Under the pieces are notes generated by a model. It was not told the origin of the DNA, ran no database searches, and saw only the letters and a list, made by a program, of their open reading frames with translations. From positions 1-64,000 of the forward strand of contig CAIYLG010000015.1 in assembly GCA_903927025.1 (NCBI GenBank): DNA of 64,000 nt, read 5' to 3'. The DNA comes from an uncultured Armatimonadota bacterium (GTDB taxonomy: Bacteria; Armatimonadota; Fimbriimonadia; Fimbriimonadales; Fimbriimonadaceae). This document shows positions 1 to 9,147 of the stretch, piece after piece (position 1 is the first letter of the stretch; each line of letters begins with the position of its first letter). The translations under genes and the position numbers were made by a program.

Positions 1-186
1 CCAGGGACGAGAAAGCCCAAGGCCCATCGCAAAAAGCTCTTCAGATGTCACATTGAAATCACGGACAAAAGAGTCGAAAAGCGTCTACCTCTGAGAAAGA
101 TCTGCATTGAACCTAACCCACAGGAAGTGAGAGAGAGCCATGAGCAATTTGGAATCACCGCACTCAAACGACCAACATCTTGCTAA
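1..186 (+). CDS. Possible 3' end of a gene cut by the window edge
   Basis: Frame 1 is open from the first base to a TAA at 184-186, giving 61 residues rich in Lys, Arg and Glu. No family is recognised and no start is inside the window. On the opposite strand a short frame is also open towards base 1, so the strand is not certain. The call rests only on the open frame and on its position just upstream of the next plus-strand gene. Confidence 0.25.
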   Translation, partial: PGTRKPKAHRKKLFRCHIEITDKRVEKRLPLRKICIEPNPQEVRESHEQFGITALKRPTSC

Positions 187-341
187 TGCCGTACCAATAT
201 GACTCATTGTGATGTATGATATCAGTACGTCATGTTTAAAGCAACACGAACCTGGACATTAAGCATCGCAACGAGCTTTTTCTGGCGTGCGTCATTGCGT
301 TCATAGCGCTCCACGCATTACGTCCGCGACTAGACTTTGAC

Positions 342-1415
342 GTGAAAACGAGGGCTCTTCATTATGATAGTCACATCATTTCTAACTCCTTAGTAGCATT
401 AGCCAAAACAGAAGGCGTTCATCTTTATCCACAGACAGGGTTGTCATTGAGCTTAATCGGCAAAACCTCAAACGGCTGGGCAAAATTCACCGATGGCGCT
501 CAAATCGCAGGCGTCCTCGATGCGGCTGCTACCGAGAACGGATACATCGTCCAAGGGCGCGCGATGCTCTTATCGTTGTTATCATGCGCATTCATCGCTT
601 TTGTTTATCAAATGGCGGTTGGGGCCTGGTCCTTGTGGATTGGCCTTATTGCCATTCCCGCGGGAGCTGCAATTTATCAGTCTTGCCCCGCATGTTCAGG
701 CTTAGAGAAAAACATGCTGACGTTTAGCCCCCTATGCGCTGTGCTTTTGGTGGGGCTGCTTTGGATCTTACTTTCCGTTTCGGCTTCTCGCAAAGTCATG
801 CGGTTAGCCATCGCATGCGGTTGCCTCGTATGGTTCGGACAGATGGCCTTGATTGCATTGGCACCCAAATTTTGTCTGGCTTGCCTAAGTCTTGGGTTGG
901 CAAATTGTGCCCTTATTTCTCTCGCGGCTGCACGGCTCGACAATTCAGAAATCCTTCCCATCCGATTGCCAAGAGGATTATCAAGCTTGGCTTACACTGG
1001 GCTTGGTGCGGTAGCTATGCTGCAAGGTGCCTATGCTGCTGGCTGGTTGATTCCTCACCTTGCCCAAGGGATTGCAATGCCTCAATTCATTGGGAAAGGC
1101 ATTCGCCCCTATGTGCCGATGATCGACCGCGTGAAGTCACGAATATTAGTCGTAACACGTGAGGGGTGTAGCTACTGCGACCGGGCTATGGCGGCTCTGA
1201 CCTTAAGAAAAATAAATTTTCAAAACGTGCCCGTTAATCTGGGCGACGATTCCATTGTGACTTTCCACGCCAAGGACACACCGATCCTAACTCCGCTTAT
1301 CCTGGTTTTAAATCCCGATAACACCGTTGGGTTTGCCCAGTCCGGTTGGCCAAGTTCATCTGATGGACAGACGACTTTACTCGAAACTCTTGCATCGGTT
1401 CGGAGGAGCAAATGA
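342..1415 (+). CDS. VKOR-like membrane thiol oxidoreductase with C-terminal thioredoxin-like domain
   Basis: This is a multi-pass membrane protein with about five hydrophobic segments between residues 73 and 240 and three CxxC motifs: CPAC at 115-118, CLAC at 178-181 and CSYC at 276-279. The layout of membrane cysteine pairs followed by a soluble CxxC domain matches bacterial VKOR-thioredoxin fusions, which make disulfides outside the cytoplasm and pass electrons to quinone. A MauE-like protein is the main alternative. The start used is GTG at 342, but the frame is open back to 240 and that stretch would encode a hydrophobic segment (FLACVIAFIALHAL), so the true N-terminus is probably longer or the start is frameshifted. 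It overlaps the next gene by four bases (ATGA), so the two are probably translated together. Confidence 0.6.
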   Translation: MKTRALHYDSHIISNSLVALAKTEGVHLYPQTGLSLSLIGKTSNGWAKFTDGAQIAGVLDAAATENGYIVQGRAMLLSLLSCAFIAFVYQMAVGAWSLWIGLIAIPAGAAIYQSCPACSGLEKNMLTFSPLCAVLLVGLLWILLSVSASRKVMRLAIACGCLVWFGQMALIALAPKFCLACLSLGLANCALISLAAARLDNSEILPIRLPRGLSSLAYTGLGAVAMLQGAYAAGWLIPHLAQGIAMPQFIGKGIRPYVPMIDRVKSRILVVTREGCSYCDRAMAALTLRKINFQNVPVNLGDDSIVTFHAKDTPILTPLILVLNPDNTVGFAQSGWPSSSDGQTTLLETLASVRRSK

Positions 1416-1765
1416 AACTAGCAAAGATCAAAATCTACGTGTGCCGCTACGCGGCTTTAACTTTAGCAGTCGGCGTTATCGGGCTTTCTGCTCGCAGTGC
1501 GCTAGCAACGGGTATTAATTGCAGCGCGGATGGAGTGGAAGGGTGCGAGAGTATCCCCAAACAGTTCTGCGGCACCATCCAGGGAAACTACAACTATGTG
1601 ATGCGTCAACCTTACGGCTGTAACGGCTCGGTTAATACAGGGTCTGGAATCTGTTTTCCTGCAGAAACTGGCCCATGTTGTGTGACAGTCCGCACAAAGA
1701 GCTGCCCAACAGCCTTGCCATGTCCTTGCCCCGCTCCAGCATCACCCGTTAATCCTAACCCTTAG
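1412..1765 (+). CDS. Secreted cysteine-rich small protein
   Basis: The 117-residue product has a clear signal peptide: a basic start, a hydrophobic core near residues 13-27 and an ALA cleavage site near 32. The mature part holds ten cysteines and ends in a Pro-rich tail. No family is recognised. The start overlaps the stop of the membrane thiol oxidoreductase gene (ATGA), and an even number of cysteines in an exported protein next to a disulfide-forming enzyme suggests it is that enzyme's substrate. That link is inference. A GGAGG ribosome site just before 1412 lies inside the upstream gene. Confidence 0.65.
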   Translation: MKLAKIKIYVCRYAALTLAVGVIGLSARSALATGINCSADGVEGCESIPKQFCGTIQGNYNYVMRQPYGCNGSVNTGSGICFPAETGPCCVTVRTKSCPTALPCPCPAPASPVNPNP

Positions 1766-1777
1766 CGGAGGAATTCC

Positions 1778-2392
1778 ATGAAATCGCGTGCATTTAGCTT
1801 AATGGAACTTCTAGTCGTCATCGCAATCATTGCGGTTTTGGCAACTGTTCTATTCCCCGTTTTTGGGAGGGCAAAGCAGAAAGCAAAAGAGGCCAACAGT
1901 ATTTCAAACTTGCGGCAATGCTCTTTGGCGTTATTACTTTATGCTGACCTGTACGGCGGTGAACAATACATGCCTCAATATAGCGAGGCCATAAAGGTTC
2001 TGAGCAAAGCACCAACATGCGATCTAAACGACTACTGGCGGCAGAGTTGTACTGAAAATGTTTATGCTCCTCTGATTGGCAGTTACGGATATGTACGCGG
2101 TTCCATAGTAGGCGACACGGAAGCACATTGGACGGAATACCTTGCAGACCAAACCGTCGGGCAAAGTCTGCTAATTTGTCCCTTCTATGGTTCAGAGCAT
2201 CTGACCAAATTCAGGGGCGACATTGAACCGCCGACCTGTGGCCCTCCTATAGCGGGTTGCCGTTATCCTGACCGCTTGCTGGTGGCTCGGATGGATGGAT
2301 CGGCTACCGGCAGCAACAACAAAGCTGGCGGATCAGTTGCGACCGGGGGATTTTCATTTAGTTGGTCGTCCGCTTTTGTGGGGAGGTATTAG
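1778..2392 (+). CDS. Type II/IV pseudopilin-like prepilin
   Basis: The N-terminus is a classic class III prepilin signal: MKSRA followed by FSLMELLVVIAIIAVL, with Glu at position 5 of the mature protein and Ala instead of the usual Gly at -1. After the hydrophobic helix come FGRAKQKA and a SNLRQC segment, the form seen in the very large families of pseudopilins of Planctomycetes and Armatimonadota. The 204-residue length is normal for that group and several cysteines lie in the C-terminal part. A strong GGAGG site sits eight bases before the ATG. It probably belongs to one transcript with the two genes before it. Whether it forms a secretion pseudopilus or a single surface protein cannot be told. 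Confidence 0.85.
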   Translation: MKSRAFSLMELLVVIAIIAVLATVLFPVFGRAKQKAKEANSISNLRQCSLALLLYADLYGGEQYMPQYSEAIKVLSKAPTCDLNDYWRQSCTENVYAPLIGSYGYVRGSIVGDTEAHWTEYLADQTVGQSLLICPFYGSEHLTKFRGDIEPPTCGPPIAGCRYPDRLLVARMDGSATGSNNKAGGSVATGGFSFSWSSAFVGRY

Positions 2393-2395
2393 AAT

Positions 2396-2830
2396 TTGAG
2401 TTCACAATTTGCGACACTTGCAGAAGCGGTGAAAGAGTTTCCTAGGGCGACAAGACTATTCCTCGGAATTACAATTGCGACGCTTCTCGGTGTGTTTGTA
2501 CCAATCGTGTGTCTGAACATTTTTGGGGTGTGGTCGAATGCCTACAGTGCTTTTGGCGATCACTTGTTTGTCGGCATCCCTTGCACCCTCGGCAACCTTC
2601 TTGGCTTTGCCGTCAAGCGGATCTGGCCTTGCGTGATGGCGTTTTTGTTCTTACTGGCCATGATCCAGTTCGTTCTTTTGGTAAAGGCAAAGCCCATGGA
2701 CGACTGGTTAAGTGCCTATCCCGCCTTCACGCGGACGGTTGGTGGTCTTCTCCTTGATGCTCTGTTCTTCAACTGGTACGCCAAGCAATCTGGTTTGCTG
2801 ACAAGTTCTAAATCCAAGTCCGCAATCTGA
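2396..2830 (+). CDS. Small multi-pass membrane protein of unknown function
   Basis: The 144-residue product has hydrophobic segments near residues 20-42, 55-70, 77-97 and 110-128, so about four membrane passes. The start is TTG at 2396, three bases after the pseudopilin stop, which places it in the same transcript; GGGAGG at 2381-2386 can serve as its ribosome site. No family is recognised. By position it may help assemble or anchor the secreted products of this cassette, but nothing in the sequence proves it. Confidence 0.55.
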   Translation: MSSQFATLAEAVKEFPRATRLFLGITIATLLGVFVPIVCLNIFGVWSNAYSAFGDHLFVGIPCTLGNLLGFAVKRIWPCVMAFLFLLAMIQFVLLVKAKPMDDWLSAYPAFTRTVGGLLLDALFFNWYAKQSGLLTSSKSKSAI

Positions 2831-3163
2831 TTTAGACGAATTTCCGACAACGGTTTGTGGCTTCTTCTCACCGTTGCGCAGACGGTCAAATACTCCGCTT
2901 GTTCCGTATTCTCCCAAATGCAGTCAATGCCCCGACTAAATTCGCCTGACTGATGCTAGGCTTCGCATCGCATCGCAAATAGTCCTCTCGCCTCACTCCG
3001 TCCGTCTCCCGGTGGGCGGGTCCACCTCGCCCACCCTTACCGGCGCTTCGGATTTGACCGGCACCTCCGCTCTTTTAGTTCTTAGTGCCGGCGCGATGTT
3101 AGGTTGCGGTCAGCAAAAAAGACGGCGTGAGACCTAGGCTGCCTATGGCTGAGCTTTGGAAGC
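2831..3163. other. Intergenic stretch with one hairpin
   Basis: No coding frame was convincing here. GGTGGGCG at 3011-3018 pairs with CGCCCACC at 3028-3035 over a nine-base loop. There is no T-run after it on either strand, so it is a weak terminator candidate between the plus-strand cassette and the minus-strand KTSC frame. Confidence 0.3.
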
Positions 3164-3421
3164 TTAGCGTTCTGGGAGCCTGTTCCAAATGTTCAGTCTG
3201 CAATACTTGCCTGCTGAGGATGCCGAAATAAATCTCCGGTAGCCTGGCTCGGGCACATCCGCATAAGTACATCCGTTGCCGTCGGCGAATACAATCGCAA
3301 GCGCTTTGGAATCGGCGCCGTCGTCTACTTTTGAAATCCAACTCGATTCTAAAATTTCGCTTGGAGCATCGATAAGTATGGGAAGCGCCGCGGACTGTTG
3401 GCCCAGAGTCCCTGTGCGATC
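3164..3421 (-). CDS. KTSC-domain protein, start codon not standard or lost
   Basis: Reading the minus strand from 3421 to a TAA at 3164 gives 85 residues. The last 60 match the KTSC fold family (first named from lysyl-tRNA synthetase C-termini): SSWISKV, LAIVFADG, YADVP, then SASSAGKY and NIWNRLP, which fits the family pattern of SS-x-I, L-x-I-x-F-x-x-G, Y-x-x-VP, ASSKGxY and N-x-I. There is no ATG, GTG or TTG between the upstream in-frame stop and the domain; CTG at 3404-3406 is the best start, giving 80 residues. It is either a gene with a rare start or the 3' remnant of a longer protein. Stand-alone KTSC proteins are common and have no firmly known role. Confidence 0.55.
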   Translation of the reverse strand, partial: DRTGTLGQQSAALPILIDAPSEILESSWISKVDDGADSKALAIVFADGNGCTYADVPEPGYRRFISASSAGKYCRLNIWNRLPER

Positions 3422-3573
3422 TCACGAGGTGCTGATGTGGACTGGTCAGAGCTAGTCGTGCCCTTTTGTCTAAAGGGATTCTGCGGGAAATGAAGCGAAC
3501 CAAGACCCATTGCGCCAGGATCCGTGACCTCAGGGCATTTGATTGTTGACAGCCGAAAGACTGGCCCAGGCCC

Positions 3574-3626
3574 AAAGAGTGGTGGAGAATAGGGGACTCG
3601 AACCCCTGACCTCTTCCATGCCATGG
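3574..3626 (-). repeat. Left attachment-site repeat, tRNA-Ala 3' remnant
   Basis: These 53 bases match 9066-9118 with one mismatch and correspond on the minus strand to the anticodon loop, variable region, T arm, acceptor 3' strand and CCA of tRNA-Ala. Beyond 3626 identity drops sharply, but a nine-base D-arm match (CTCAGCTGG on the minus strand) persists near 3638-3646 at nearly the tRNA spacing. It could therefore be a displaced att copy or a whole tRNA copy whose 5' half has decayed. Confidence 0.75.
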
Positions 3627-3775
3627 TTAAGGCGATTTCCAGCTGAGATAAGTGCCGTTTGAACCTGAGATTGGATCTCAAACTGTCCTGAAATGACGAA
3701 ATGAAGCGGTCATACAACGCTTCAGACCTAGTATAGATCGTTTACCGCCTCCGATGTTATCGGATTTGGCAGGCA

Positions 3776-4036
3776 CTACTTTGTAGCGATTTGGTCGGTC
3801 ACCTGTTTAAACAACTCGTTGGGATCAATGCCCAAGGCAGTCGCAACTTCTATAAACTCGACGACATCAATGCGCCGTGTGCCTTTCTCAATCTTGGCGA
3901 TGTAGCTGAATGACTTGCCCATTTTAAGCGACAGGTCACGTTGGGTGGCATTTCCTGCCCTTCTAGCGGCCTTCAGGACAGCGAGTAGGGCGTCATATTC
4001 GGCGGTCCTAACAGAATCGACAGCCTTTTCGCCCAC
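3776..4036 (-). CDS. XRE-family HTH transcriptional regulator
   Basis: The 86-residue protein is almost only a lambda-repressor-type helix-turn-helix (HTH_3) domain at residues 16-75. TQRDLSLKMGKSFSYIAKIEKG supplies the two helices, followed by a dimer-type helix ending in ALGIDPNELF. The start is GTG at 4036. It is transcribed away from the zinc-ribbon gene and the gap of 60 bases holds a perfect palindrome, so it probably controls both promoters, as small repressors in mobile elements usually do. The DNA-binding role is secure; the target is inferred. Confidence 0.85.
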   Translation of the reverse strand: MGEKAVDSVRTAEYDALLAVLKAARRAGNATQRDLSLKMGKSFSYIAKIEKGTRRIDVVEFIEVATALGIDPNELFKQVTDQIATK

Positions 4037-4057
4037 TCGTGAAATTTGGATTCGTTT

Positions 4058-4090
4058 TTGATACCAACTTGGTATTTCTTCGAATAGAAT
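4058..4090 (+). promoter_or_regulatory. Operator palindrome and promoter between divergent genes
   Basis: ATACCAA-C-TTGGTAT at 4061-4075 is a perfect 15-bp inverted repeat, the size expected for a dimeric XRE repressor. It overlaps a possible -35 (TTGATA, 4058-4063) and precedes a possible -10 (TAGAAT, 4085-4090) that ends six bases before the GTG of the zinc-ribbon gene, so that transcript would be leaderless. The -35 to -10 spacing is long, so the exact promoter is uncertain; the palindrome is not. Confidence 0.65.
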
Positions 4091-4096
4091 GTTGTC

Positions 4097-4720
4097 GTGA
4101 GCTCCGCGGATCAGATGCTAGCTAGATTACGGGACCCAAAGTTGGCGCAACTTGCTGTGCCTACTTACACCTCATGTGAGCATTGTAAGGGAACGCAAAA
4201 ATGCGGTTTTTGTGAAGGCCAAGGCATGCACCGGCGATTTGGTGGAGACCGACACGGGAATCCTATGCTCTGCGGATTCTGTGAGGGGACTGGTCGTTGC
4301 CCGGGCTGTGCTACTCATATCGACGGACTGGCCAAGGTGAAAATGGAAATCGAAGCTGGCTATCTCACTCTGGCGGAATCTACAATCCAAGTTCATCTTC
4401 AGAAAGTAAACGAACGTGAGGCAAAGGAACGAACGTTCGACAAAGCCGTTGCGGTGGGTGGTCTAGCATTGGCTGGTGCCGCATTGTTCTCGGGATTAGG
4501 ACTGGTTGCCGGTGCTTTGGGCGGTGGTCTCGTTTCTGAGAACAAGAATGCGAAGCCAATTCAGCATCTTCAGGTAAGAAGGGCGGATCTGTTTTTCTGT
4601 CTTGGTTTGGTGTACACACTGCAACAGCGTCACTCAGAAGCCAAGCAGGCATGGATAAAGGCCCTTACAATGTGTGACACCCACCAGCCAACGATCAAAG
4701 TTTTAAAGGAGCTTGGATAA
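4097..4720 (+). CDS. Zinc-ribbon membrane protein with C-terminal TPR-like helices
   Basis: Eight cysteines form four CxxC pairs at residues 27/30, 36/39, 59/62 and 68/71, with CxxCxGxG-like spacing as in the DnaJ zinc-finger region. A His- and Gly-containing loop separates the two halves. Residues 118-145 are a Gly/Ala/Leu-rich membrane helix or hairpin. The C-terminus (about 166-205) has a TPR-type helix pair, LGLVYTLQQRHSEAKQAWIKAL. No J domain is present, so it is not DnaJ. The start is GTG at 4097. The stop is followed at once by the ATG of the His-rich gene, so the two are coupled. A role in protein or membrane quality control within the element is only a guess. Confidence 0.6.
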   Translation: MSSADQMLARLRDPKLAQLAVPTYTSCEHCKGTQKCGFCEGQGMHRRFGGDRHGNPMLCGFCEGTGRCPGCATHIDGLAKVKMEIEAGYLTLAESTIQVHLQKVNEREAKERTFDKAVAVGGLALAGAALFSGLGLVAGALGGGLVSENKNAKPIQHLQVRRADLFFCLGLVYTLQQRHSEAKQAWIKALTMCDTHQPTIKVLKELG

Positions 4721-4978
4721 ATGCAAATCGATCTACCGGGAATCATGGGACTCAAAGTCCACCTCTTCAACGGTCTGGATGGAGTCACCCACGTTGGATC
4801 AGGGCATATGCATCACATGAATGCTGGCAGCTGGGTCAATAACGGTCACGTGATGCACCATTCACCAAGTTTTGCCGCTTCTCACATGGGTGGCGCTTTC
4901 CACCATTCAGCTAATCCTCTGGGTGGGGAAATCACCCTGCCAAGTGATCACGTTGGCGGGATGTTGTTGGAACTCTGA
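4721..4978 (+). CDS. Small histidine-rich protein, unknown function
   Basis: The 85-residue product contains clusters HMHHMN, HVMHHS and FHHS and is otherwise rich in Gly, Ser and Asn. It has no signal peptide or membrane helix. Its ATG directly follows the TAA of the zinc-ribbon gene, so it is very likely co-translated with it. The histidine clusters could bind a metal such as Zn, Ni or Cu, which fits the metal-binding partner next door, but no family is recognised. Confidence 0.5.
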   Translation: MQIDLPGIMGLKVHLFNGLDGVTHVGSGHMHHMNAGSWVNNGHVMHHSPSFAASHMGGAFHHSANPLGGEITLPSDHVGGMLLEL

Positions 4979-5018
4979 GTCTGAAAGGCTGGATCAGTTG
5001 GTTTAAGTGAGAGGCTTG

Positions 5019-5279
5019 ATGAAACGAAGTTCTTTGGTCTGCTTGGCGTTTGCCCTCTGGGGTTGCAAAGCCAGCCACCCAGCATATGGTGGGCCTCCCA
5101 GAGCTGTCTACAGTGTCTACTATTTGGCGTCGGAGGATGGGGTGAACAAGACCGAAGTATCTGAAACCCAGTTCTACGACATGGTTGACGCTCATGAATG
5201 CAAAGCCGTCAGCCGGGAAGGCAACTCCTGTGTGGTGTCGCCGCAGACCTACATGGCACTCTCCCTGAAGACCCAATAG
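5019..5279 (+). CDS. Small predicted lipoprotein
   Basis: From ATG at 5019 the product has 86 residues and begins MKRSSLVCLAFALWGCKAS, a basic start and hydrophobic stretch ending in a lipobox (ALWGC), so it should be lipid-anchored at the cell envelope. A GTG at 5007 would add four residues. The remaining part has two further cysteines and no known domain. It lies 40 bases after the His-rich gene, on the same strand, probably in the same transcript. Confidence 0.5.
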   Translation: MKRSSLVCLAFALWGCKASHPAYGGPPRAVYSVYYLASEDGVNKTEVSETQFYDMVDAHECKAVSREGNSCVVSPQTYMALSLKTQ

Positions 5280-5700
5280 TGTGTCGAAGGATTCGTCATT
5301 GCGGGAGAATCGACCCTCTAAACCTGCTTGTAGCGCCCACCAACAGCGTAGATTCAATTGGGAGCTTATGGTCTGTTGGGAAGGCTCCGCCACTGGGACC
5401 AGCCCGATTGCAATAATCCTTGGTGATCGCTAACGCATTTCGATCTTCATGGACTTAGCTGGTTTCGGTGGTGGAAGGGGCCTGGCTGACCATAAGTCAC
5501 AATTGAGGCGGAGCAGGAAGCACGCCAACCAGACAGGGTCGAAATTATTGAACGGAATGCAAGGAGTGCGACGCAGGCGCCCCTGGAATGCAGAGATCAA
5601 TTTCGTGCCCGGAAAAACACGAACAACAATGGAATTTCGAGGTTAAAAGGCCTTGTCGGAAAGTGATGCTAACATCTTAAAGTTGTCCGAGAGAGGAGAA
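5280..5700. other. Stretch without a supported gene inside the element
   Basis: A 65-codon frame at 5449-5646 has no ribosome site or family likeness and is not called. No repeat, hairpin or RNA gene was recognised here. Confidence 0.3.
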
Positions 5701-5928
5701 ATGACTCGAAGAATTAGAAACAATACGATTTTTTGGGGTGCTGTGCTCGGATCGTTTTGTGCCAATAAACTTGGAAATGAGTTCGTTTTGCTGTTTGGCC
5801 TAGTTCCAAAAGGTGAGGAGGTGGAAAGTAGCGATGCGGGAATAACCGCGTCGATGATCTGCTACCCCGCTGGCTTCGTAGTCACCTTTATTTTCTTGTG
5901 GTGGTTTCTCGCTAAACGGAAGGGCTAG
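5701..5928 (+). CDS. Small two-pass membrane protein
   Basis: ATG at 5701 is preceded by a strong GAGAGGAGAA site, so it is preferred to TTG at 5653. The 75-residue product has hydrophobic segments near residues 10-36 and 48-70 and ends in the basic tail LAKRKG. It is convergent with the RHS gene. An immunity role for that gene's possible toxin tail can be imagined because of the position, but immunity genes normally lie downstream on the same strand, so this is weak. Confidence 0.45.
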   Translation: MTRRIRNNTIFWGAVLGSFCANKLGNEFVLLFGLVPKGEEVESSDAGITASMICYPAGFVVTFIFLWWFLAKRKG

Positions 5929-5998
5929 CCACCTCATTGCACACCGCTCGGGGGCTTTGACTAGTTTTGCACAGGAGCCCTTGGCACTGAGCCGAATA

Positions 5999-6823
5999 TC
6001 ACGCAGGATTGCACTCTGGTAAATACGGGAACGGAGGGAGAAACGGTTGAGGCGGATTTGTCTTGTAGATGCCACTGCATTGTGCTTCGCAGTCTGCTTG
6101 GGAACTCTTGCCCTTTTTGATGGGCTTTCGGCCAATTGCCACTCCAGTGCTGCACCAGCCCCACCTGTCTTGCCAGGACCCAACTCTGGACGGCGTTGTG
6201 GCGTTCTGTCCCGCTTGAGCCGTCTGAGCACAAGTTGATCCATCCACACGTGTGAGAACACAACAAGCCATGCAGTGGGAGTAGGGATGGTTTGCTCCAT
6301 GCATAGGCGCTGGGAGCCAAGACTTTCGAATAGCCTGAGCGCAATCTTTGCAATGCTGGAGCCCTGTGCGAATCCCGTTCACCCCATTGTAGAGGCTGAT
6401 CCCCTGTTCTGGAGTACAACCCAATCCGCCCGAGAAAATACCTTGCATTCCAGGAGGGTCTACAAAACTTATCGGATTGGCGTTGACGTAAGCATATGGC
6501 AATTGCCATGGCCACATCTCATCGACAGTTAGCCATCGAGTCAATTGGGGGACATACTCCCGTGCGCGCATATATATTCCACCCCAACTGTCGGTGTAGC
6601 AACCCAAGATGCCTCCAAACATGAACGGTGTTTCGCTGGTGCCGACATGGCTCTGTAGCTCACCAAATGGCCAGTAGGTGAATGTGTCCGTTACGTTTCC
6701 TGATGCGTCCATTAGCCCGATTGTGTTGCCGTTGGTATCTCCCATATAGAAGCGTTCGACTCCTCCTCGATTTTCATGGACGATCCTACCGTTGATGGTT
6801 GTGTAAACGACGCTCATAGGCAT
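5999..6823 (-). CDS. Orphan RHS core tip with cysteine-rich C-terminal tail
   Basis: Residues 20-126 are the end of an RHS repeat-associated core: DTFTYWPFGEL, a GIYMRAREYVPQLTRWLT segment matching the YYRARYYDPxLGRFLS motif, then YVNANPISFVDPPGM matching the NNPLNFVDPSG closing motif. Residues 127-274 are a unique tail with 11 cysteines, including HCMACC. Full RHS proteins are far longer, so this is a stand-alone 3' module, yet it has its own ATG with GGAGAAAA seven bases upstream. In polymorphic toxin systems such tails are the effector. The tail could not be assigned to a toxin family, and no signal peptide is seen. Confidence 0.65.
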   Translation of the reverse strand: MPMSVVYTTINGRIVHENRGGVERFYMGDTNGNTIGLMDASGNVTDTFTYWPFGELQSHVGTSETPFMFGGILGCYTDSWGGIYMRAREYVPQLTRWLTVDEMWPWQLPYAYVNANPISFVDPPGMQGIFSGGLGCTPEQGISLYNGVNGIRTGLQHCKDCAQAIRKSWLPAPMHGANHPYSHCMACCVLTRVDGSTCAQTAQAGQNATTPSRVGSWQDRWGWCSTGVAIGRKPIKKGKSSQADCEAQCSGIYKTNPPQPFLPPFPYLPECNPA

Positions 6824-6917
6824 GGGCTTTTCTCCATATCTTTGCGGCTAGTTGCGTCACTCCTCCAAAGAGGTCGACACGCTTGTCTCCATCTAACCGC
6901 ACTCACATTGAAATTAT

Positions 6918-7145
6918 ATGACAGGATTTCGTCATTCAGTGAGGGTATTTTTCAAATCTGAAAGCCTGATTGGTCACGCAAACTTGGCGGGCTCTATCTG
7001 GGAATTTCGGGAGGTCCCCAAAGCAGTCACTAACCAGACGAAGCCGACTGAAAGGCAGGATGCCTGGAAGGAGAGCGTCAAAACCACGACACAGAGACGC
7101 AGTTCCGCAAAGCCGGTGAGCAACGCGAACAATCAGAAAGCGTGA
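6918..7145 (+). CDS. Possible small basic hypothetical protein
   Basis: ATG at 6918 opens 75 residues whose second half is strongly hydrophilic (many Lys, Thr, Arg, Asn and Gln), a composition more like a real protein than a shadow frame. There is no clear ribosome site and an overlapping minus-strand frame exists. The rest of 6824-7296 shows nothing else that can be supported. Confidence 0.2.
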   Translation: MTGFRHSVRVFFKSESLIGHANLAGSIWEFREVPKAVTNQTKPTERQDAWKESVKTTTQRRSSAKPVSNANNQKA

Positions 7146-7296
7146 AGCGATGCCATGGATGGCAGTGCTCAAGGAAGTGGTTTTAGCCATGGATGGCGTG
7201 AAGCGTGGAACACAACTGCCGATCAGTTGCCCCAAAACGAGCTTCCAAACCGAAACCGTATGAAGGCATGGATGCCGAAATTCCTTCAAGAAGCAA

Positions 7297-7971
7297 TTGG
7301 GCCTGAATGTTTGGGAGGTATTTGCGGATTACGCCGGGGTGGAGTTCAAGTCAGATGTTAAGAAGGCGATCAAGGCATCTCTATATGGGACGGTAAACGG
7401 TTTAACTGCAAAGGGTGCCTGTGTAGATCTAGCCAAGGTGATCGGAGACGGTCCCGCGACCAAGTTGGTTCACCACGCTGTCTATAAGGCTTTGCGTGAA
7501 GCCAGTAAGGCCCGCCTAGATTGGTTTTTGCAGGAAAAGAAGCTTGTTGACGCTGTCGGCCAAGAATTTGAGCTTGGCCCCCATGTGAGAGGAAACACCC
7601 ATCGACAGCAAACTTATTCGGCGTTTGCCAACGAGGAGCAAAGTTACGAAATGGCTGTGCTGGCCCCGGTCTTTCAATACGCCAAATTAAGCGAGAGGAC
7701 AGATAGGCCAGTTTGGGTGATGGGTTGGCTCCATGACGGTTTGTTCATCCACTGTGAGCCTCAGTTCCGAGACCACCACGTCAAGCAGATAAGGCGTCTC
7801 ATTAAAGTCACGTCCGCCGATTTATTGGGAGCTGAAATGGATGTTGACATTGATCTGCCAAAGTCGCCGTTGACTCCAACACAGATCAGTACATTGCGAT
7901 CTCTTTATGCTTCGAACCCTGTAAAGCATGAAGACTTCGATTTTTCGGCGCTCATCCCGGAAACCGCCTAA
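7297..7971 (+). CDS. C-terminal fragment of a family A DNA polymerase-like protein
   Basis: The order of polymerase A palm/finger motifs can be followed. Residues 20-37 (SDVKKAIKASLYGTVNGL) match motif B, normally K-x-x-N-F-G-x-x-YG. Residues 104-126 (QTYSAFANEEQSYEMAVLAP) match the NAPIQGTAADI region. WLHDGLFI at 144-151 matches motif C, where the catalytic Asp follows His. Motif A and all exonuclease parts are missing and the frame is open upstream only to 7264, so this is a truncated gene. TTG at 7297 is a nominal start. It was probably the replication gene of a phage or plasmid-like ancestor of the element. It overlaps the recombinase gene tail to tail by four bases. Confidence 0.5.
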   Translation: MGLNVWEVFADYAGVEFKSDVKKAIKASLYGTVNGLTAKGACVDLAKVIGDGPATKLVHHAVYKALREASKARLDWFLQEKKLVDAVGQEFELGPHVRGNTHRQQTYSAFANEEQSYEMAVLAPVFQYAKLSERTDRPVWVMGWLHDGLFIHCEPQFRDHHVKQIRRLIKVTSADLLGAEMDVDIDLPKSPLTPTQISTLRSLYASNPVKHEDFDFSALIPETA

Positions 7972-8963
7972 GTGCTTTTGGTTCCTAATCTGTCTCCGGG
8001 TGAGAATTGCCGGTGCTGATTCTCGATGTCCGCCTGAGCCAATGCAACATAGCGATTCACCATGGTTAAGGTTGTATGGCCCAAGATCTCTTTGAGGCTG
8101 AACACATTTCCTCCCGCTCGTAGAAACTGAACAGCAAAGGAGTGCCTGAAAGTGTGAGGACTGCAACGAGTAGCTTCAATTTTGGCGGCTGTGCCAATTC
8201 GACCAATGAGTTGTAGCAGACCGTTTGGTCTAAGTGCTTCCCCTGTTTGGGTGCCCCGATCTGAGTAGAAAACGGTTTGACCTGGCTCCCGTGGTGATTC
8301 ACGCAAATAGTGCATCAACGCTTTGGCGGTCTGCTTGCCGAAATACACCGTTCTGTATTTGTTGCCCTTTCCTTGCACAACGCATCTGCGACCAGGGACG
8401 TCAAGATTCTTGGTTTTCAGGCTACGCAACTCCGACGCGCGCATACCTGTATCGTAGAGAAGCCGGACAATCACCTCATCCCTTTTTGGGTGAAATGTCA
8501 ACTTCGATGCTTTGATCAGTGACTCAATCTGTGCTTCAGAGAAGGGCTGTACTTGATCACTTCGCACAATTGGGGATGCGATACTCTCCATGGGTGAGTC
8601 CGAAAGCATGCCCTCTTCGACAGCCCGTCGGAAAAAGGTTCTGAGGTGGGCATAGAAGGTTCTGATTGTTGATGGTCGGGCTTGGCCACACTTGCGACCA
8701 TTGTTCCATCTTCCCTCTAGACCATGATTTGCTCGCCCCAGGTAGGCAATAAACGCCTTCAATTCAGGAGTGCCGCAGTGTTCGTGTCGGTTCTTTTTCA
8801 GGAACCAGATCAACTTTTCGGTTATGACTCTTCTGAGCGATAGCGTTGCCGCTGAATGCTGTCTGATCTCGCAATCGAGCAACCATTCTTGGACGGTTGA
8901 CTCAAAATCGACAACCGAAATGGTCGTCGTCGTTCTTCGTGAAGTAAGCGCGCTTTTTCTCAA
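7968..8963 (-). CDS. Tyrosine recombinase/integrase
   Basis: The 331-residue protein has an N-terminal SAM-like core-binding domain (about 15-120) and a catalytic domain with the full set of residues: R175 (GMRASEL), K199 (GKGNKYR), H270 and R273 (HTFRHS), H296 (LGH) and Y305 (NRYV). Length and motif style are XerC/XerD-like. TTG at 8963 is preceded by AGGAGG at the right distance. It ends about 110 bases inside the tRNA-proximal end of the putative element and most likely catalyses integration and excision at tRNA-Ala. Because all catalytic residues are present it may still be active. Confidence 0.9.
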   Translation of the reverse strand: MRKSALTSRRTTTTISVVDFESTVQEWLLDCEIRQHSAATLSLRRVITEKLIWFLKKNRHEHCGTPELKAFIAYLGRANHGLEGRWNNGRKCGQARPSTIRTFYAHLRTFFRRAVEEGMLSDSPMESIASPIVRSDQVQPFSEAQIESLIKASKLTFHPKRDEVIVRLLYDTGMRASELRSLKTKNLDVPGRRCVVQGKGNKYRTVYFGKQTAKALMHYLRESPREPGQTVFYSDRGTQTGEALRPNGLLQLIGRIGTAAKIEATRCSPHTFRHSFAVQFLRAGGNVFSLKEILGHTTLTMVNRYVALAQADIENQHRQFSPGDRLGTKST

Positions 8964-9065
8964 GGAAGCCTCCTGCTTGGGTTAGGAGGACAGAGAGATT
9001 CTTGAATTCAAAACACTTAAGGTGCTTAAGTGAACCTCAATACTCGCGGTATTGCAGGATTCCTT

Positions 9066-9118
9066 AAAGAGTGGTGGAGAATAGGGGGCTCGAACCCCTG
9101 ACCTCTTCCATGCCATGG
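9066..9118 (-). repeat. Right attachment-site repeat within tRNA-Ala
   Basis: This copy of the 53-bp repeat lies inside and just past the 3' half of the intact tRNA-Ala gene. It ends at the anticodon loop, where the match to 3574-3626 stops abruptly. After integration this end would have rebuilt a functional tRNA. Confidence 0.75.
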
Positions 9119-9147
9119 AAGCGCTCTCCCAGCTGAGCTAATTCCCC
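9072..9147 (-). tRNA. tRNA-Ala(GGC)
   Basis: The 76-base gene folds as a full cloverleaf. The acceptor GGGGAAU pairs with AUUCUCC (one G-U pair), the D arm contains AGCUCAGCUGGGAGAGC, the anticodon stem CUUCC/GGAAG holds loop AUGGCAU with anticodon GGC, and the T arm is AGGGG-UUCGAGC-CCCCU. The discriminator is A and CCA is encoded. Its 3' half is duplicated at 3574-3626. Confidence 0.96.

Follow-up and report, generated by a model that had tools for sequence, protein, structure and literature searches.

The window, by which we mean the whole 64,000-nt stretch of DNA analysed, comes from an uncultured Armatimonadota bacterium and carries a 5,492-bp element (one repeat copy counted) at a tRNA-Ala(GGC) gene, bounded by a 53-nt direct repeat and equipped with a tyrosine integrase. 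Relatives of this integrase occur across the phylum, predominantly beside tRNA genes, and the elements around them carry short copies of tRNA sequence near both ends that track each element's own target tRNA. The account as a whole, comprising an integrated element with its own integrase, a crossover in the anticodon arm, a putative assembly of attP from half-sites and a probably non-autonomous copy in the window, is in our judgement likely correct.

Element boundaries and target tRNA

The two repeat copies are identical at 52 of 53 positions and are spaced 5492 nt apart. ARAGORN analysis of the whole window identified a single tRNA, an intact tRNA-Ala(ggc), and BLAST of this tRNA against the window returned one second copy alone, at the far repeat (E 2e-23). 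The original prediction had claimed a direct repeat and an intact tRNA, and both were borne out. As in Islander-type islands, an intact tRNA lies at one end of the interval, a matching 3' tRNA fragment lies at the other, and an integrase gene lies within.

9072..9147, minus strand: target gene tRNA-Ala(GGC), intact, at attL (ARAGORN)
9066..9118, minus strand: attL repeat copy, 53 bp, covering tRNA nt 30-76 plus 6 bp beyond CCA (repeat comparison, BLAST)
3574..3626, minus strand: attR repeat copy, the displaced tRNA 3' part (repeat comparison, BLAST)
3627..3656, minus strand: tRNA 5' half in decayed form, within the element beside attR (best match to tRNA nt 1-29)

The repeat begins at tRNA nt 30, which puts the crossover within the anticodon arm. 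tRNA genes are ordinary insertion targets, and crossover at this place characterizes a common class of tRNA island. Among the matches listed for both window strands, 3627-3656 was the top match to tRNA nt 1-29 besides the tRNA itself; the D-arm CTCAGCTGG is kept in this copy, and its D-arm part (3639-3656) agrees at 15 of 18 positions. Judged from these traces, the window element seems to be a decayed version of those family members that have a whole tRNA copy at the distal end.

Integrase

The gene directly 3' of tRNA-Ala, on the same strand, encodes the integrase.

7968..8963, minus strand: tyrosine integrase, 331 aa, XerC/D-like, core-binding and catalytic domains (Pfam, PHROG and XerA/C/D profiles)

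The protein matched 4-170 of the 172 positions of Pfam Phage_integrase (PF00589; E 2e-34), and PHROG also assigned this ORF to integrases. Putative catalytic residues were recognized by eye within the near full-length PF00589 match (ASELR, GKGNK, HTFR, GH and NRY), and a Shine-Dalgarno-like AGGAGG precedes the start codon. The integrase looks intact, in agreement with the earlier claim of a complete tyrosine recombinase: the ORF is full length and the catalytic-domain match is near-complete.

A SAM-like core-binding domain was matched weakly from about residue 25, and the XerA profile aligns from residue 27. Because the core-binding domain starts so near the N-terminus, there is no room for an arm-binding domain, and the integrase is of the simple recombinase type, with no N-terminal arm-binding domain. 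An enzyme built in this way would bind core-type half-sites only.

Cargo of the element

Seven further ORFs were listed between the repeats.

3776..4036, minus strand: XRE/HTH_3 regulator, 86 aa, near attR (Pfam HTH_3, E 8.5e-12)
4097..4720, plus strand: 207-aa protein with CxxC zinc-binding motifs and a TPR-like C-terminus (ORF list, Pfam)
4721..4978, plus strand: 85-aa histidine-rich ORF, no family (Pfam, PHROG)
5007..5279, plus strand: 90-aa ORF with a lipoprotein-like signal, no significant family (Pfam, PHROG)
5653..5928, plus strand: 91-aa ORF with hydrophobic segments, no significant family (Pfam)
5999..6823, minus strand: RHS C-terminal fragment, RHS-associated core and variable tip (TIGR03696, E 6.7e-11)
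7297..7971, plus strand: C-terminal fragment, 224 aa, of a family-A-polymerase-like protein (alignment to relatives)

Homologs of the 207-aa protein were found in only 2 other genomes of 291. The RHS fragment had 14 further matches elsewhere in the host genome; several of the 15 (its own included) are clustered on two contigs (G000:C48 and C39), and this clustering suggests, at the level of sequence matches, RHS cassette arrays in the host genome.

The 224-aa ORF was considered as a complete protein, and this was rejected: it aligns solely to the C-terminal part of proteins of 470-570 aa. These full-length relatives show weak but consistent, sub-threshold Pfam similarity to the palm motifs of family A polymerases (DNA_pol_A, PF00476). 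The window copy retains motifs B and C but lacks the region that holds motif A in the relatives; the gene is therefore broken and cannot encode a working polymerase. Full-length members of the family (L046:8442-10007, L047:8432-9847, L048:8391-10112 and L049:8239-9822) have WLHDG at motif C, and no Pfam family covers them at threshold. In several genomes these genes lie near helicase or restriction-modification-like genes.

The original prediction that the element lacks transfer and phage structure genes held up in Pfam, PHROG and NCBIfam searches. No phage structural or packaging genes (0 PHROG structural matches), no relaxase or conjugation genes (Pfam, NCBIfam) and no primase-helicase replication gene were found in the element. 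Nor were known defence genes found; PADLOC returned generic HTH control proteins and one weak match. A self-transmissible element, a prophage and a defence island were each rejected, as no such genes are present. With a truncated replication-like gene, no transfer or packaging genes and an apparently intact integrase, the window copy is probably non-autonomous.

Flanking DNA and the tRNA-Ala site in relatives

To the left of the element, 3.5 kb remain before the contig ends, and this flank had no match in any relative. Since the left flank is short and unmatched, the left boundary is set by the repeat alone. The flank (window 1-3573) holds a VKOR-like gene and a prepilin-like gene with no close counterpart among the genus relatives searched, and it may itself be acquired DNA. 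The VKOR-like gene was tried as a synteny anchor and rejected, its matches in the genus being only distant. The GC content of the element is 0.508, compared with 0.548 in the 8-kb right flank; the left flank is similarly low, so composition is uninformative on the element.

The same tRNA-Ala site was compared in genus relatives, as the original prediction had proposed. There was no integrase relative at the loci read, and the right flank was loosely common to two relatives (G004 and G019), the left flank to none. When the two flanks were compared by BLASTN with the tRNA-Ala loci of the relatives, no match was returned. Neither an empty site nor a junction of an excised circle was seen.

Related elements in the phylum

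At E<=1e-45, a search of 291 genomes of the phylum gave 44 integrase matches including the window's own, in 29 genomes; the 43 relatives, in 28 other genomes, are 35-55% identical to it. No close relative was found in IMG/VR, GTDB contigs, plasmids or phages, and none of at least 60% identity in plasmids or phages; the named-database search gave one partial 64% match, in a Chthonomonadaceae MAG. A tRNA lies just upstream of the integrase on the same strand at 34 of 41 relative loci and at 13 of 20 further loci. The target tRNAs represent ten amino acids (Val, Ala, Gly, Leu, Pro, Glu, Asp, Asn, Arg and Ile), some of them as single loci. On the integrase tree, at least 17 changes of target amino acid were counted over 33 integrases; most deep forks are unresolved, which leaves the number of independent target switches uncertain.

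A distal tRNA repeat was found for six other members, giving element sizes of 8.9-36.9 kb:

tRNA-Glu element: 36.9 kb
tRNA-Val(TAC) element: 34.9 kb
tRNA-Val(CAC) elements, two: 15.2 kb and 11.8 kb
tRNA-Asp element: 10.0 kb
tRNA-Asn element: 8.9 kb

For many members no distal repeat was found in the stretches read, and several of their contigs end close by. In the Val(TAC) case, tRNA-Asp, Phe and Thr come directly after the displaced fragment, and a tRNA array (Val|Asp-Phe-Thr) was probably split by the insertion. This family-wide position at tRNA 3' ends, together with the six distal repeats, lends good support to the earlier claim of integration at tRNA-Ala by the adjoining tyrosine recombinase.

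The distal end holds a whole tRNA copy in three members (G018, G055 and G244) and the 3' part alone in three others (G100, G127 and G090). In the former (L133:9233-18083 in G244), the entire tRNA gene is duplicated, with two apparently intact copies around the element. In the three members where the repeat does not cover the whole tRNA, it starts at nt 29, 30 and 32, compared with 30 in the window, and these members and the window element thus have the same crossover region.

The two Val(CAC) elements (G018 and G055; L050, L106 and adjoining stretches) share an integrase, an XRE regulator and a 749-aa DUF3854/Toprim protein at 84-85% identity, and the primase-like gene for this last protein is not present in the window element. 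Their cargo differs: type III restriction-modification-like genes in one, and a C5 methylase, an ORC/CDC6-like ATPase and a ThyX-like protein in the other. The class thus combines a common integration module with exchangeable cargo. Restriction-modification systems, a primase-like gene and phage-like genes are all found among the elements that have this integrase family.

The original prediction of a small, little-described class is not supported in that form. Smallness is not a feature of the class, as relatives measure about 9-37 kb and the window element is the smallest mapped member; decay of this copy seems to account for its small size and odd cargo. The class does seem to be little described as regards the integrase clade, especially in the layout of its attachment sites.

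Copies of the target tRNA near the element ends

Family members carry copies of the 5' anticodon stem (nt 27-33) of their target tRNA near both element ends. On the tRNA side these lie about 40 and 100 bp into the element, and on the distal side about 135 bp from its boundary. In the Val(CAC) elements, 13-14 nt of the tRNA 5' anticodon arm, AGCACTTCGTTCAC, recur at +37 and/or +101, counted from the end of the tRNA; the +101 copy falls within the first integrase codons, and a shorter copy is located about 135 bp from the distal end. Arm copies were seen in L050 (G018), L106 (G055), L124 (G090), L133 (G244) and others.

The best 13-mer match to each locus's own tRNA 5' anticodon arm was compared with that obtained when tRNAs were permuted among loci (32 loci, near-duplicates dropped). 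Own tRNAs scored significantly higher at +20-70 (mean 8.38 vs 7.82 permuted, p<0.0002) and at +85-140 (9.44 vs 8.07, p<0.0002), in a permutation that treats related elements as independent and is uncorrected for phylogeny. Control windows at +150-205, +210-265 and +265-320 showed no difference in the same 32 loci (p=0.28, 0.43 and 0.77). With the Val members left out, the increase persisted in both intervals (p=0.0008 and p<0.0002, respectively). Because the intervals had been picked after the Val cases were known, the unchanged test was repeated on 13 held-out loci from a second search, giving p=0.036 at +20-70, p=0.002 at +85-140 and 0.25-0.76 in the controls. For the 7-mer of nt 27-33 alone, across all 45 loci, z was 4.6 and 8.0 in the two intervals. 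The excess is confined to these nucleotides, which form the 5' anticodon-stem strand plus two loop bases, equivalent to one core half-site.

On the left arm, six elements with different tRNAs gave an exact permutation p of 0.001 in the interval -175 to -115, which was picked after some of the same elements had been seen and has no held-out set. Five of the six sites lie between -132 and -140, and three control windows were null. Several members share an isoacceptor, which works against detecting tracking, and about half of the members have no clear copy at one or both positions. Across the family, the arm copies statistically track each element's own target tRNA.

The window element has candidates at the corresponding positions:

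8958..8969, minus strand: candidate P' arm site GCTTCCTTGAGA, covering the integrase start codon, at a position that the family conserves
8942..8954, minus strand: second candidate P' arm site AGCGCGCTTACTT, at +118, 10/13 to its own tRNA
3700..3712, minus strand: candidate P arm site TGACCGCTTCATT, 9/13, located 139 bp from the distal end

At 8958-8969 the window reads CTTCCTT, compared with CTTCCAT at tRNA nt 27-33, a match that is weak alone in this element, and 3700-3712 is positioned as in five of the six other elements. Taken singly, each of the three matches is within chance.

Proposed mechanism and alternative explanations

In our reading, the window holds an integrated mobile element whose integrase joined an element circle to tRNA-Ala(GGC) by recombination within the anticodon arm. 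A new 3' half came from the element, keeping the tRNA gene whole at attL, and the old 3' half was displaced 5.5 kb to attR. For its assembly on attP, the integrase would most likely use additional half-sites of the core type that copy target sequence: one lies about 80-85 bp to the left of the core, and of the two on the right the outer covers the integrase start codon. In this mechanism the integrase would bind the candidate arm sites. The extra half-sites would change when the integrase switches tRNA; they could aid loading on a weak core half or give direction, and repression of the integrase gene could be a further role of the start-codon site. For prophage KplE1, an integrase gene is reported to be tightly controlled. 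For the broader proposal, that a family without an arm-binding domain builds attP from several tRNA half-site copies, so that a switch of tRNA would need core specificity and accessory sites to change together, we see an even chance.

Integration itself is common ground with the reading of the window copy as a dead remnant, an older and larger family element cut down by deletion, whose integrase is intact incidentally; the two differ on whether the element still moves. The polymerase-like gene without motif A, the RHS fragment, the missing replication and transfer module and the decayed tRNA 5' half at attR are what a remnant would show, and we place this reading a little short of an even chance. 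The full-length integrase ORF with its complete catalytic-domain match, the AGGAGG ahead of its start and repeats that still agree at 52 of 53 positions argue instead for a copy that may still be able to excise. A tandem duplication of the tRNA-Ala region, with a decayed left copy and an unrelated integrase that happens to lie beside the right one, is highly improbable. The traces of a tRNA 5' half in the left copy are as expected of a duplicated gene, but whole distal tRNA copies in G018, G055 and G244 explain them within the family; moreover, identity stops sharply at tRNA nt 30, in the anticodon arm, as in three other members, and in the left copy divergence is far greater in the 5' half than in the 3' half.

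The tRNA-like copies near the integrase start might alternatively be scars of earlier integrations or serve RNA-level control of integrase translation, as one site overlaps the start or first codons of the gene in many members. We think this unlikely: the att core has sites to its left and to its right at comparable spacings, the copied part is a core half-site (nt 27-33), and the left-arm site is found at the opposite end of the integrated element, away from the integrase start. The assembly of attP on extra half-sites meets a difficulty of its own, in that simple tyrosine recombinases, which lack the arm-binding domain of other integrases, are described as less intricately regulated (PMC8138268), and this counts against a role for arm sites.

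Relation to known systems and significance

The window element resembles the anticodon class of tRNA islands (Islander, PMC4383910; Williams 2002 sublocation A), with the integrase beside the restored tRNA and a displaced 3' fragment marking the far end. Islander lists 2083 anticodon-centred islands with size peaks at 13.6 and 39.9 kb (PMC4383910), whereas the window element measures 5.5 kb and its integrase family was found across one phylum; a further difference is that some members have a tRNA copy, either whole or decayed, just within their distal end. As in prophages, P4-like satellites and integrative islands, the integrase lies near one end and an XRE gene towards the other, and relatives carry primase-like, restriction-modification or phage-like genes as prophages and P4-like satellites do. 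Unlike these, the window copy has no replication, packaging, conjugation or structural genes.

With core-binding and catalytic domains only, the integrase is of the kind found in phage Brujita. The arm-less Brujita integrase is said, in work by Lunt & Hatfull (2016), to have one extra displaced core-type site, P1, in attP. The family described here differs in that its extra half-site copies number two to three, flank the core on either side and track the target tRNA of each member, and the arm layout looks like an undescribed way to build an insertion complex.

The window element is an ordinary, small island with decayed cargo; the arm-site pattern of its family is worth following. Members of this family have changed target among at least ten kinds of tRNA, and their accessory sites appear to have switched along with the target. 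If the integrase binds these sites, arm-type control would be possible without an arm-binding domain, and the accessory sites would provide both a readable record of target switching and a handle for re-targeting simple integrases.
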